Shown piece after piece: positions 5,653 through 10,578 of a DNA stretch of 40,646 nucleotides. Source of the stretch: Anaerolineales bacterium (GTDB lineage: Bacteria; Chloroflexota; Anaerolineae; Anaerolineales; RBG-16-64-43); NCBI GenBank assembly GCA_016928575.1, contig JAFGKK010000038.1, forward strand, positions 1-40,646, written 5' to 3'. The notes beneath the pieces are model-generated. The model saw only the letters and a program-made list of their open reading frames with translations. It ran no database searches and was not told the DNA's origin. Each line of letters starts with the position of its first letter. Within the stretch, counting starts at the first letter, position 1. A program made the translations under genes and the position numbers.

Positions 5653-7971
5653 CTACACGCCGTGCTTCCTCCGCATGATCCATCCCGCCAACGCGTAGAA
5701 AACCGCCGAGACGGCCGCCAGCACCGCGGCGGACTGCCACACCATCTGCGCCGGCGCTTCGCCCGCGATCGCGAGCCGGAACATGCGCATGATCACGGAA
5801 GTCGGAAACCAGGAGAGCAGATCCGTCAGCCAAGCCGGCCAGACTCCGACTAAGAAGGTTTCGAAGAGCAACGGGAGGACCACGAGAATGAAGAGCGGGC
5901 TGCCCCAGAACGCCGCGGCGGTCGGCGAATCCGCCAGCACGCCGACCAGCGTTCCGACCGAGACCACGAACAGCGCACCGAGGAACAGGGTCAACGCCAG
6001 AACGTCCCAGTGGACGATCTGCTTAAGGTTCATCAGCGCGATCACGATCCCGACAAACAGGCCGTAGGTCATCCCGGCGAGCAGCTTGCCGACCAAGATC
6101 TGCACGTACCCTGCGGGGGAGACCCTGAGGATGTCCATCGTGCGCGATTCCTTCTCCTCCACGAAAAGCAGCGGCACGATCGCGAATCCGACCACCGCCA
6201 GCATCAGGATCTGGGTGAGCAGGTTGATCAGCGGCCGCCCTGAGGAATCAGCCGACGGATACAAACCCTCCTCGGCCATGGTGATCTTCACATCGGTGGA
6301 TGCGGCAAGGCTGAGTTGTTCGGAAAAATGGACGGCATCCTGCGCGGTTTTTTCCGGATCCGCCCAGTGCGCGGCGTAGGCTTCGAGCCGGATCTCGGCC
6401 CGGCTTTGCACAAGCGCGTCGAAATCAGCCGGGAGCACGAACCCGATCCAAATGCCGGTGGCCTCCACAACCCGCATTTCCATATCCTCGCGCGATGCCG
6501 CCGCCACCAGCCGGCCGTCGATCTCCCCGACCGCCTCTCGGAAAGCGGCCGATTTTCCCTCGTCGAAGACGACCGCCGACGGCGGGCTGCCCCGGTTGAT
6601 CAGCGCCGGCAACAGGCTCCCGTTGACCGCCAGGAACGCCGTACCGATCATCACCGAAAAGATGAGCCGGTTGCGGAATGCTTCGCGCACGTCCTTGAGC
6701 GCGATCGCCGCCGTGATCCGCAGAGCAGCGCGTCCGCAGGAAGATTCCGGCGCATCGTTCTTCGTCCCGGAATCTTCCTGCGGAGTCGTGCGCGCCGGCG
6801 GGCGGAATGCTTCCTCCGGCTGTACTTGTGCGGGGGGAACGCCGTTCTTTTTCCTGAGCTTGGATTCGTCCGCCCGATCCCTCCGCCGCAACAGCCAGGA
6901 GACGACCGCAAGCTCGATTCCCGTGCAAACGATAACCCAGCCCAGCCCCAGCAGGGGCGCGCCGAGCGTGATCGGCTGGGCGAATACGTATCGCATCGCG
7001 AGATACGCCGTGACGGAGGGGATAACGGGCAGCACGCGCATGACCGCGTCGGGGATCAACTCGCGCAGCAGGTAGAGGATGACCGGCATGAACAGCGGCA
7101 GGATGATCAGCCAGGCCCAGACGGCGAATTGGGCCCGGGATTCCATCGCGGTTCCGAGGATCAGCCCCATCGACACGCAAAATATCGCATACACCGCCAA
7201 AATAACCAGAAACAGCCCCCAATGGACGATCAGGCTGTGGTTGACGATCACCGCCAGCGCAGCCACCGTGCCGGAGTAGAACAAGCCGGCCAGCAGCTTC
7301 CCCGCCGCTATCTGGGTGGCGCTCGCCGGAGAGACAAGCAGCACGTCGAGCGTGCGAGCCTGCTTCTCGTCAAACATCAGGTGCGGCACCAGGCTGATCC
7401 CGATCATCGTCAGCGAAAAGATCAGCGCCATCGCGGCCTGGGTTCCGGCGCCCTCGTCGTCCACCGGCCCATAGACGACGCTTTTGTCGATCGCGATGGA
7501 TACGCCCGTACCCCAAACGGCGGCGATCGCTTCTTCCACTTCGGCCTTCAGCCCGGCGACCTCTTCCCCGCTCAGCCAGTAGGCGACGATGCCGCGCAGG
7601 GGCGGCGCGTCGCCCCCCGCCGCGATGTCGTCGAAGCCGGCCGGGATCACCAGGCCGAGCTCCGGGCGATCGCCCAGCGCCAGACGGCGCTTCATCTCCT
7701 CTTCGGAGGGAAAATCCGATCTCACCTCCAACCCCGAAGCTTCTTCCAGGCGGCCGGTGTACGCGGAGTTGCCGGCATCATAGATGAAAACGGAGATCGG
7801 ATTTTTGCCGGCGGACAGCGAGGGAAGCGCTTTGTAGAAGAGGATGAGGAACGCGACCGAGAAGAACAGCACCAGGATGTTCCTGTTCTTAATTCCCTGG
7901 ACGATGTCCTTCCGGGCCAGCACGCCGACGACCCGCAGATATTCCAGAATATTTTTCATCGCCGCAACCAT
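5653..7971 (-). CDS. ABC exporter permease: two ABC-2 permease units fused in one chain
   Basis: This 772-residue protein consists of two homologous halves, each with an N-terminal membrane anchor, a large extracytoplasmic loop and a block of membrane helices. The same signature appears in both halves: DEKQARTLDVLLVSPAS...GKLLAG and EEKESRTMDILRVSPAG...GKLLAG. It resembles NatB/ABC2_membrane_3 exporters, which normally have one unit of about 380-400 residues per gene; here the dimer appears to be encoded as one polypeptide. The halves are joined by a hydrophilic linker (roughly residues 365-420) that contains a DNA hairpin (6734-6783). AAGGG lies six bases before the ATG at 7971. The ATPase gene is immediately upstream (33 bases), so the two should form one exporter. 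The substrate is unknown. Confidence 0.88.
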   Translation of the reverse strand: MVAAMKNILEYLRVVGVLARKDIVQGIKNRNILVLFFSVAFLILFYKALPSLSAGKNPISVFIYDAGNSAYTGRLEEASGLEVRSDFPSEEEMKRRLALGDRPELGLVIPAGFDDIAAGGDAPPLRGIVAYWLSGEEVAGLKAEVEEAIAAVWGTGVSIAIDKSVVYGPVDDEGAGTQAAMALIFSLTMIGISLVPHLMFDEKQARTLDVLLVSPASATQIAAGKLLAGLFYSGTVAALAVIVNHSLIVHWGLFLVILAVYAIFCVSMGLILGTAMESRAQFAVWAWLIILPLFMPVILYLLRELIPDAVMRVLPVIPSVTAYLAMRYVFAQPITLGAPLLGLGWVIVCTGIELAVVSWLLRRRDRADESKLRKKNGVPPAQVQPEEAFRPPARTTPQEDSGTKNDAPESSCGRAALRITAAIALKDVREAFRNRLIFSVMIGTAFLAVNGSLLPALINRGSPPSAVVFDEGKSAAFREAVGEIDGRLVAAASREDMEMRVVEATGIWIGFVLPADFDALVQSRAEIRLEAYAAHWADPEKTAQDAVHFSEQLSLAASTDVKITMAEEGLYPSADSSGRPLINLLTQILMLAVVGFAIVPLLFVEEKESRTMDILRVSPAGYVQILVGKLLAGMTYGLFVGIVIALMNLKQIVHWDVLALTLFLGALFVVSVGTLVGVLADSPTAAAFWGSPLFILVVLPLLFETFLVGVWPAWLTDLLSWFPTSVIMRMFRLAIAGEAPAQMVWQSAAVLAAVSAVFYALAGWIMRRKHGV
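6734..6783. repeat. 17-bp perfect inverted repeat inside the permease linker
   Basis: CCGCAGGAAGATTCCGG (6734-6750) is perfectly reverse-complementary to 6767-6783, around a 16-base loop. It is translated in the minus frame as residues about 397-413 (PQEDSGTKNDAPESSCG), exactly between the two permease halves. It looks like a former intergenic hairpin now read through as a linker. Confidence 0.9.
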
Positions 7972-8004: not shown

Positions 8005-8742
8005 TTACTGCGGTTCCACGGGCATCGGGGATCCGGTGAGTTTGAGGAATACGTCCTCCAAGGTCCCCTGCGGCCCGCCATGCGCGGCTTTAAGGGCGGC
8101 CGGCGCATCCATGGCGACGATCCGCCCGCGGTCGAGGATCGCCACCCGCGCGCAGAGCCGGTCGGCCTCCTCCATGTAGTGTGTGGTGAGGAAGACCGTC
8201 GTGCCGCTCCGGGCCAGGCCGGCGATAATCGAGCGGACGTCGCGCGCCACAGCGGGATCCAGCCCGCGGGTCGGCTCGTCGAGGAAGAGCACTTGCGGAC
8301 GGGGGATCAGCGCCCGCGCGATCAGCAGACGCTGTTTCATACCGTTGGAAAAGCGCTTGATCGGCTCACACGCCCGCTCCGCCAGCCCCACCTGCTCCAG
8401 CACCTGCGCGACCCGCTTGCGGGAAGCGCCGTACAGGTCGGCGATGAAGTGCAGGTTTTCGATCGCGGACATCCGCTCGTAGAGGTTCTGGTATTCGAAG
8501 ACGACGCCGATCCGCCGCTTGAGCTCCGCCCGTTCGGTGACCGCGTCGTATCCGGCCACCTTCGCGCTCCCGGAGGTCGGCCGCAGTTGGCCGGTGAGGA
8601 TCCGGATGGTGGTCGTCTTGCCCGCGCCGTTGGGCCCGAGGAAGCCGAAGAGCTCGCCCGCCGCGGCGGAGAACGTGATCCGGTCGACCGCTTTCACGGT
8701 TCCGAAATCCCTGCTCAGTTCGTGCGTTTCGATGGCGTTCAT
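8005..8742 (-). CDS. ABC transporter ATP-binding protein (exporter ATPase)
   Basis: The 245-residue ATPase has a complete set of motifs: Walker A GPNGAGKT (36-43), Q-loop region FEYQNLY, signature FSNGM (131-135, a common variant of LSGGQ in NatA/CcmA-like ATPases), Walker B VLFLDEPTRGLDP (151-163) and the H-loop TTHYMEEADRL. It belongs to the drug/Na+ exporter type that pairs with ABC-2 permeases. The fused permease follows 33 bases downstream on the same strand. Upstream, between this gene and the small membrane protein gene, lies an array of GC hairpins that starts 13 bases before its ATG. It should energise export through the fused permease. Confidence 0.93.
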   Translation of the reverse strand: MNAIETHELSRDFGTVKAVDRITFSAAAGELFGFLGPNGAGKTTTIRILTGQLRPTSGSAKVAGYDAVTERAELKRRIGVVFEYQNLYERMSAIENLHFIADLYGASRKRVAQVLEQVGLAERACEPIKRFSNGMKQRLLIARALIPRPQVLFLDEPTRGLDPAVARDVRSIIAGLARSGTTVFLTTHYMEEADRLCARVAILDRGRIVAMDAPAALKAAHGGPQGTLEDVFLKLTGSPMPVEPQ

Positions 8743-8754
8743 GATTTTCTCCTT

Positions 8755-8988
8755 CCCCCTCCTCTATCCTCCCCCGTTTAGAAAACCACTAAACGGGGGA
8801 GGATTCTGCTTTTGTCCTCCCCCGTCAGCTTGCTTGTGGGGGAGGCTTCAGTTGTCTTCCTCCCCCGTCAGCTTGCTTGTGGGGGAGGCTTCGGGTTTCT
8901 TCCTCCCCCGTCAGCTCTCTTGCGGGGGAGGCTTCGGTTGTCTTCCTCCCCCGTCAGCCAAGCTGACGGGGGAGGGAAGGGAGGGGGC
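8755..8988. repeat. Array of five GC hairpins with 43-bp period
   Basis: The first unit, TCCTCCCCCGTTTAG/CTAAACGGGGGAGGA (8767-8781, 8789-8803), is a perfect 15-bp hairpin. Four further units begin at 8816, 8859, 8902 and 8945, exactly 43 bases apart, each with CCTCCCCC...GGGGGAGG arms and often GTCAGC inside. The last is a perfect 14-bp hairpin (8945-8958/8962-8975). The leading 62 bases (8755-8816) are identical to 9331-9392. The array sits between the start of the ATPase gene and the stop of the small membrane protein gene. Internal sequences are too similar to be CRISPR spacers. Confidence 0.9.
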
Positions 8989-8989
8989 A

Positions 8990-9313
8990 TCACCGTGCAA
9001 TCAACTCGAAGAGGATGATCATGCCGACCAGAACCGCCACCCCGCCGATCGCCGCGATCACGTAGATCCACCGCCTGCCGGGGGTTTCAGCGGTTTCCAT
9101 TTCCGCGCCCATGCGGCTGACGCTCATGGCGATCCCGATCACGACGCCGATCCCCGCCCCGATGGTGATGCCCAGGGCGAGATTCCCCAAAGCGAGCCCC
9201 AGAGCGACACCCGCCCCCGTGCCGACGGGGATCCAGACGGCGCTATTCGCCGCGCGCCGGTTTTCCTGCATCTCGTTCCGTGCCTGCTTGTTCGAATTCG
9301 GTTCGTAGGCCAT
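8990..9313 (-). CDS. Small glycine-rich two-helix membrane protein
   Basis: The predicted protein has 107 residues. A polar Asn/Gln/Arg-rich N terminus (about 26 residues) is followed by a long glycine-zipper-like helix region with repeated GxGxGxxxGxxxGN and GxxxGIG spacing (about 29-65), then a second hydrophobic helix (about 83-105). ATG at 9313 is preceded by AGGAGAAACGAAG. No family was recognised with certainty. Hairpin arrays flank it on both sides (8755-8988 and 9331-9465), and it lies between a LytTR-type regulator and an ABC exporter on the same strand. It may therefore be an accessory or immunity-type membrane protein of that exporter; this is inference only. Confidence 0.7.
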   Translation of the reverse strand: MAYEPNSNKQARNEMQENRRAANSAVWIPVGTGAGVALGLALGNLALGITIGAGIGVVIGIAMSVSRMGAEMETAETPGRRWIYVIAAIGGVAVLVGMIILFELIAR

Positions 9314-9330: not shown

Positions 9331-9465
9331 CCCCCTCCTCTATCCTCCCCCGTTTAGAAAACCACTAAACGGGGGAGGATTCTGCTTTTGTCTACCCCCG
9401 TCTGTCTTCTTGCGAGGGAGGCTTCGGGTTTCTTCCTCCCCCATTAGCTGCGCTAATGGGGGAGG
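9331..9465. repeat. Second GC hairpin array, three units, 43-bp period
   Basis: Bases 9331-9392 repeat 8755-8816 exactly, including the perfect 15-bp hairpin (9343-9357/9365-9379). A degraded unit starts at 9392. A further perfect hairpin with arms CCTCCCCCATTAGC and GCTAATGGGGGAGG lies at 9435-9448/9452-9465. The 43-base spacing is kept between the second and third units. Compensatory changes (GTTTAG/CTAAAC, GTCAGC/GCTGAC, ATTAGC/GCTAAT) keep the stems paired. Confidence 0.9.
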
Positions 9466-9522
9466 AGAGAGGAGGAGGCAATCCGCGATTTCAATATAGA
9501 AATCTTCCCAATAACCCGCAAC

Positions 9523-9544
9523 AAAAAAGCGCCCGAAGGCGCTT
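9523..9544 (-). terminator. Intrinsic terminator of the ABC-LytTR gene
   Basis: On the minus strand AAGCGCC-TTCG-GGCGCTT (stem 9527-9544) is followed by a run of T. This is a textbook rho-independent terminator about 45 bases after the stop codon of the regulator gene. It separates that gene from the downstream membrane protein and exporter genes. Confidence 0.9.
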
Positions 9545-9588
9545 GGGAGAGGTTGAATGAAGCAAAACAGGTGATGAATGGAACGCGG

Positions 9589-10578
9589 TTAATAGCCGAA
9601 AAAGGCCTTGAGTTCCGCGGCCGCGGACTTGCTCAGCGGGATTTTCGTCCCCGCGGCATCGTCCAGGCGGATGCTGTAACTGTTGCGGGTGTAGGGAATC
9701 ACTTCCTTGACGTGCTGCAGATTCACCAGGATGCTGCGGTGGGCCCGGAAGAAGCCGCTGCGAGATAGTTTGTTTTCCAGATCGGCCAGCGTGTACTGCG
9801 TCGGCAACCGTCCCTCGGGGGTGACGAGGGAAATCCGGCCTTCGCCAGCGTCGGCATAGAGGATTTCGACGGGATTGAGCAGGACGACTTTATCTTCAAG
9901 TTTTACCGGCAGTTTGAAGGCCCGGCGTCCGGCATCCTCCGATTCGAACTTGGTTTCCAGCAGGCGCCCCTGTTGGAGGTTATAGATCCGGAAGCATAGC
10001 GGTGCCAGCCGGGCGGACGTACTCGACAGCAGCAGGACGGCGGTTCCGCTCTCCGCCTCAGCCCGGACCAAACTTTCCAGGAGCATGATCGTGGCTTCAT
10101 CGCAGCGGGCAAAGAGTTCCTCAAGGACCAGCGCCTTCGGCCGGTGAAGGACGGCGCGCCCGAAGGCCAGCCGACGCTGTAAACCCGGCGGCAATTTTCC
10201 GGCGGATACCGATTCCTGGTCCGCCAGCCCGACCTGCGCCAGGACCTCATCGATCCTGGCTTTCGGCGTTCCGAATAAATCCGCTTGAAATTCCAGATTG
10301 GCGCGCGCGGAAAGGTTTTTATACAGCGCGTCTTCGGTGAACACGATTCCCGAGAGGCGGCTGAACCGCTCCCGGGACTGCGCGGGGTCCGCTCCGCCGA
10401 GCCTGACCGTGCCGAGCGTCGGGCGGATGCGGCCGATCAGCAGGGCGAACAACGCGTCGCGGCCGCTGTCCTCGAGCCCGAACACGCCCGCCGTTTCGCC
10501 CGCGCCGACGGCGAGCTCGGGGATGTCGAGGACGGTCTTGCCGCCGAGGACCTTCTGGACGTTGCGGAGCTCGATCAT
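9589..10578 (-). CDS. Degenerate ABC-ATPase domain fused to a LytTR DNA-binding domain
   Basis: The predicted protein has 329 residues. Residues 1-215 have the fold pattern of an ABC ATPase, but every catalytic motif is altered: Walker A reads GLEDSGRD (34-41, Lys replaced by Arg), the Q-loop region reads VFTEDALY, the signature reads LPPGLQRR, Walker B reads ALVLEELFAR and the H-loop His is replaced (LLLSSTSARL). Residues about 225-329 are a LytTR domain (VEILYADAGEGRISLVT, FFRAHRSILVNLQHVKEV, YSIRLDD). It is thus probably a DNA-binding regulator using a dead ABC domain as sensor or dimerisation module, plausibly controlling the exporter genes downstream. The start at 10578 is where ABC homology begins; upstream frame is repeat DNA. 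A TACAAT -10-like hexamer lies only about six bases before the ATG, so a near-leaderless transcript is possible. Confidence 0.85.
   Translation of the reverse strand: MIELRNVQKVLGGKTVLDIPELAVGAGETAGVFGLEDSGRDALFALLIGRIRPTLGTVRLGGADPAQSRERFSRLSGIVFTEDALYKNLSARANLEFQADLFGTPKARIDEVLAQVGLADQESVSAGKLPPGLQRRLAFGRAVLHRPKALVLEELFARCDEATIMLLESLVRAEAESGTAVLLLSSTSARLAPLCFRIYNLQQGRLLETKFESEDAGRRAFKLPVKLEDKVVLLNPVEILYADAGEGRISLVTPEGRLPTQYTLADLENKLSRSGFFRAHRSILVNLQHVKEVIPYTRNSYSIRLDDAAGTKIPLSKSAAAELKAFFGY

Follow-up and report, generated by a model that had tools for sequence, protein, structure and literature searches.

What function can a transporter-type ATPase domain deprived of its catalytic residues have in one polypeptide with a DNA-binding domain? 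This question is raised by a gene (9589..10578, minus strand) in the window, i.e., the whole 40,646-nucleotide stretch of contig JAFGKK010000038.1 of an Anaerolineales bacterium (assembly GCA_016928575.1) that was analysed. Its product of 329 amino acids carries a degenerate ABC-ATPase domain followed by a LytTR DNA-binding domain. As far as can be judged from sequence comparison, a role of this fusion as one-component regulator of the adjacent exporter is well supported.

Domain architecture and distribution of the ABC-LytTR fusion

The ABC part (approximately residues 1-209; 9952..10578, minus strand) was recognized by Pfam as ABC_tran (50 bits, residues 21-155) and the C-terminal part (residues 229-327; 9598..9894, minus strand) as LytTR (PF04397; 83 bits). 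The PF04397 scores of 83-85 bits lie far above the curated cut-off of 22.6, as expected for a LytTR regulator. The fusion was the only LytTR match in a profile search of the genome, and the solved sequence closest to its LytTR domain was 3d6w. An AlphaFold2 model, built with 13 sequences of its own family, displayed a mean pLDDT of 85, with an ABC fold (approximately 90), a floppy linker (residues 210-220), and a LytTR fold. Foldseek ranked LptB (TMt 0.80, rmsd 2.2) and other ABC ATPases at the top for this model, in agreement with the ABC-ATPase fold indicated by Pfam. The initial annotation of the gene as an ABC-ATPase domain fused to an intact LytTR domain was hence confirmed by Pfam, AlphaFold2, and Foldseek. 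The start codon is the one used alike by the orthologues, though the reading frame stays open further upstream.

Full-length orthologues occur in other Anaerolineae (48-57% identity). In addition, a second clade of fusions (approximately 30-41% identity) was found in other Chloroflexota, many of which have large genomes, and a third group in Bacillales, including two Priestia plasmids. The distribution is patchy: at the thresholds used, the fusion was retrieved from 20 of the 400 sampled Chloroflexota and from 3 of the 299 genomes of the phylum of Bacillus badius, and it was not found in a sampled genome of the same genus as the source organism. Many of the loci derive from metagenome assemblies. 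The conservation of the frame and of the loss of the Q-loop and H-loop residues over approximately 35 orthologues in two phyla exceeds what chance would leave, indicating that the fusion is an old family and not a product of chance decay. A few copies deviate. The fusion gene of L009/L047 contains an in-frame TAG, and that of L017/L051 is broken by a frame change and a missing stretch, either through decay or through assembly errors. On the Priestia megaterium plasmid of L102, the annotation assigns the ABC and LytTR parts to separate, adjacent genes, and two genes for lantibiotics of the mersacidin family lie approximately 3 kb away.

In a phylogenetic tree, of which the deep order is unsure because of long branches, a branch with support 94 set the fusions apart, and the partner ATPases of the adjacent exporters fell elsewhere. 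A recent duplication of the partner ATPase as the source of the dead domain was not supported by this tree, though long branches meet at that point. Fast evolution of the fusion is indicated by its end branch of 1.09, as compared with 0.43 for the partner ATPase encoded in that genome.

Fate of the catalytic motifs in the ABC domain

The ABC part could be aligned without gaps to the neighbouring exporter ATPase (8742-8005) over 206 residues (33% identity), so that altered motifs are easy to read. The Walker A motif GPNGAGKT of the partner corresponds to GLEDSGRD in the fusion, with two glycines kept, Lys replaced by Arg, and Thr by Asp. Similarly, Asp occurs instead of the Q-loop Gln, LPPGL instead of the signature FSNGM (Ser to Pro, second Gly kept), LEEL instead of the Walker B sequence LDEP (Asp to Glu, the next, catalytic Glu kept), and Ser instead of the H-loop His. 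The set of five intact motifs of a catalytic ABC ATPase is therefore absent. The initial annotation, according to which all catalytic motifs were lost, was correct as to the outcome, though not literally, in view of the two glycines of Walker A, the second Gly of the signature, and the catalytic Glu that were kept.

Across 34 fusions (16 from Anaerolineae, 13 from the second clade, and 5 from Bacillales), the Q-loop Gln and the H-loop His were each found in 0/34. Walker A was intact (GxxxxGK[ST]) in 2/16 Anaerolineae, 11/13 second-clade, and 0/5 Bacillales fusions, and the Walker B Asp was present in 0/16, 13/13, and 0/5, respectively. Loss of the motifs in all relatives, which had been named as a point to check, hence holds for the Gln and the His only. 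Close homologues with intact Walker motifs, which had been named as refuting the initial claim, exist in part; they narrow this claim and do not overturn it. The ABC domain of the fusion is predicted to be unable to run a normal hydrolysis cycle, and this predicted loss is general across the family. The likely loss of nucleotide binding, as read from the motifs, is not general across the fusions; the Walker A motif and Walker B Asp kept in the second clade suggest that nucleotide binding may matter there. Furthermore, the D-loop Asp was kept in 33/34 fusions and a Tyr three residues past the Q position in 34/34, which, with the Gln and His lost, fits the retention of a binding surface without catalysis. 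Redox sensing via cysteine C195 was considered and rejected; this residue is invariant in the Chloroflexota fusions, but it is also common in partner ATPases and is absent in Bacillales.

The neighbouring exporter and its conservation

Downstream of the fusion gene, on the same (minus) strand, genes were found for a small hydrophobic protein (107 amino acids; 8990..9313), which is the first gene past the promoter described below, a DrrA/ABCA-like exporter ATPase (245 amino acids; 8005..8742), the conserved neighbour and partner of the regulator, and an exporter permease (772 amino acids; 5653..7971) with two Pfam ABC2_membrane_3 matches. The closest solved relatives of the ATPase are ABCA proteins. 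With intact motifs in this ATPase and an ABC-2 permease present, the earlier description of an intact exporter beside the fusion was correct. Orthologues of the fusion nearly always adjoin one exporter type. At nearly all Anaerolineae loci, the next recognized gene on the same strand encodes an ATPase that is 58-68% identical to that of the window, followed by ABC-2 permeases. Second-clade loci have the gene of the exporter ATPase next to the fusion gene in divergent orientation, and in Bacillales, including Priestia, the gene order is regulator, ATPase, permease.

The 107-amino-acid protein was considered as a conserved membrane inhibitor such as those of the LytTR regulatory systems (LRS). 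This was rejected, as tblastn detected no homologue of it at the loci of relatives, where exporter genes follow instead. Inspection by eye of the gap between the fusion and ATPase genes of L005, L008, L010, and L049 revealed short frames with glycine-rich hydrophobic stretches that apparently replace this gene, with no detectable similarity to it. A 35-bp palindromic sequence is present in exactly two identical copies in the genome, one at 8768-8802, in the leader of the ATPase gene, and the other at 9344-9378, ahead of the 107-amino-acid gene. The leader thus seems to be duplicated around this gene. Several hairpin-like repeats of the type CCTCCCCC...GGGGGAGG fill the flanking spaces (8803-8980 and 9395-9470).

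A predicted LytTR operator at the exporter promoter

In known LytTR systems, the binding sites are repeats of 9 bp separated by spacers of 12 bp, and their distance to the -35 element is most often 10 bp (PMC6193735). Just past the stop codon of the regulator gene, two predicted operator boxes were found on the minus strand, namely box 1 (GTTCCATTCA; 9575..9584) and, 21 bp further, box 2 (GCTTCATTCA; 9554..9563). This pair, which had been noticed by eye ahead of shuffle testing, was matched in 0/500 shuffles, neighbouring spacings lagging far behind. A third, degenerate box (GCGCCTTCGG; 9533..9542) lies 21 bp from box 2, in register across 16 aligned loci, and overlaps an intrinsic-terminator-like hairpin of the regulator gene (AAGCGCCTTCGGGCGCTT followed by a T run; 9527..9544; -11.9 kcal/mol, z -3.2). 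This hairpin suggests that the regulator and its target probably have separate transcripts. The exporter promoter was recognized by a -35 element TTGCGG (9516..9521) and, after a 17-bp spacer, a -10 element TATATT (9493..9498), again all on the minus strand. The boxes, of the form CC[AG]TTC with a period of 21 bp (9533-9584), lie 10-11 bp upstream of this -35 element, in accordance with the layout of LytTR operators (direct repeats of approximately 9 bp, a 12-bp spacer, and a position upstream of the -35 element of the target). The LytTR direct repeats, a search for which had been suggested as a check, were hence found before 9313, i.e., at the exporter operon, and no such pair was found upstream of 10578. 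The predicted LytTR-type operator at the exporter promoter is a new result.

A search of the 3.84-Mb genome returned the pair of the window as the only exact one and one further pair with a mismatch. When one mismatch was allowed in other genomes, several scattered hits appeared; they outnumbered those of a reversed-pattern control, and two genomes lacking the fusion had such hits as well. A wide regulon was therefore not retained, the window genome having a single exact pair and one-mismatch hits elsewhere being no evidence of targets. The genome of L004 contains a second exact box pair (G827:C272:1445-1472), a possible further target.

The operator motif was derived from the second clade, and the Anaerolineae served as the test set. 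Intergenic regions at second-clade loci were seen to contain TGAATGGAGC repeats 21 bp apart, corresponding to GCTCCATTCA on the opposite strand. The core TCCATTCAA of the latter fits 7/9 positions of the LytTR consensus. Shuffle tests within the second clade are partly circular, because the motif was taken from it. In the Anaerolineae test set, pairs occurred at exactly 21 bp, and 9/19 loci reached ≤2/500 shuffles. Five loci (L008, L009, L012, L014, and L015) had a box pair no better than shuffles, which counts against the explanation proposed below. Anchoring on the promoter gave a gap-free alignment of 16 loci, in which three boxes in a 21-bp register are followed by a conserved TTGNNN, 17 bp, and TATNNT; box 3 merges with a hairpin of the form GCGCC-loop-GGCGC-TTTTTT. 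Boxes within one mismatch of CCATTC were most frequent at position 2 (14/16 loci), followed by box 1 (9/16) and box 3 (8/16). At the 13 second-clade loci, the boxes are aimed at the divergent ATPase gene with the same geometry, a TACAGT-like -10 element lying at the same distance with a poor -35 element. In Bacillales, the operator was clear in L103 (0/1000 shuffles) and marginal in L093 (3/1000), and no pair stood out in the shuffle tests of L101, L102, and L104. Two sister exporters without a fusion displayed no such box pair.

Proposed mechanism and alternatives

In the proposed mechanism, the LytTR domain would bind to the CC[AG]TTC direct repeats and thereby control the promoter of the exporter operon, a step well supported by sequence, probably as an activator, a direction taken from the LytTR class. 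The dead ABC domain would serve as the sensory half instead of as a hydrolysing enzyme, probably by binding transporter parts, i.e., by pairing with the exporter ATPase or docking on the permease. The regulator may be restrained by an idle exporter and released once the exporter is working or saturated, or the reverse; the supply of exporter would thus be under feedback, comparable to the control of MalT by MalK. DNA binding, direction of control, and signal are all presumed in this scheme. Contact sensing is favoured because the domain stems from the exporter-ATPase class, its non-catalytic positions are kept with catalysis lost, and such an exporter is nearly always alongside; that the dead domain is no recent copy of the partner ATPase counts against it. 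As a whole, an exporter regulator with a dead ABC domain that senses by transporter contact is the best explanation, its probability being judged slightly above even. More tentatively, at somewhat less than even chances, the fusions may represent a class of one-component, single-chain transporter-coupled regulators across Chloroflexota and Bacillota, in which the dead domain would dock on the live exporter encoded next to it and signal the occupancy of this exporter directly to the promoter of the exporter genes.

Alternatively, the same regulator with the same target might use its dead ABC domain as a dimerising pocket for the exporter substrate or a small molecule, without transporter contact. 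A one-component regulator with an adjacent target fits classic ligand sensing, and what was once the nucleotide pocket can vary freely in Anaerolineae. Yet, no ligand site is apparent from the sequences, and the variation of pocket residues among close orthologues with the same exporter type argues against a shared ligand there; this possibility is considered rather unlikely. The bound molecule could also be ATP or ADP, which the domain would not hydrolyse, the LytTR domain being informed in this way of the energy state. The Walker motifs of the second clade would suit such a sensor, but the scarcity of an intact Walker A among Anaerolineae and its absence in Bacillales, the lack of both Lys and Thr in the window fusion, and the persistence of gene layout and boxes without this motif make it improbable. 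Finally, the ABC half might be junk carried by a working LytTR domain, as its long end branch and the two damaged copies (the stop in L009/L047 and the broken frame with missing stretch in L017/L051) could suggest. Decay of this kind is very improbable, however, the ABC half being full-length in nearly all of the orthologues in both phyla, with invariant non-catalytic positions and a confidently modelled ABC fold supported by Foldseek.

Comparison with known systems

Literature text searches returned no mention of an ABC-LytTR fusion, although older mentions may exist, and we found no described transcription factor in which a dead ABC ATPase forms the sensory half. The earlier remark that such fusions are known by annotation only was retained. 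The RefSeq protein WP_099331387.1, from a Priestia plasmid, shares the ABC-LytTR architecture and the regulator-ATPase-permease order; its annotation, 'LytTR family transcriptional regulator DNA-binding domain-containing protein', names no function. Through the conserved operator, this annotation-only domain fusion becomes a concrete circuit for which a single target is predicted. Among kinases, the use of pseudo-enzymes as sensors is well known.

The LRS of Streptococcus mutans (HdrRM and BrsRM) resemble the fusion in having a LytTR regulator without a receiver domain and 9-bp direct repeats spaced by approximately 21 bp just upstream of the -35 element, and some LRS adjoin ABC transporter genes (PMC6193735). 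In LRS, however, sensing is the task of a membrane inhibitor, a separate protein whose gene is cotranscribed downstream of the LytTR gene and of which no conserved counterpart was found at the fusion loci; the fusion would instead sense through the dead ABC ATPase of its own chain. Similarly, the response regulators AgrA, ComE, and LytR share the LytTR domain and the operator type with the fusion, but possess a receiver domain where the latter has an ABC domain. Lastly, in the MalK-MalT system of Escherichia coli, an ABC ATPase sequesters the activator according to the transport state (PMC10427625). The likeness, a transporter ATPase part controlling a transcription factor, is a working analogy only, MalK being a live, separate ATPase, whereas the fusion has a dead ATPase domain joined to its DNA-binding domain.
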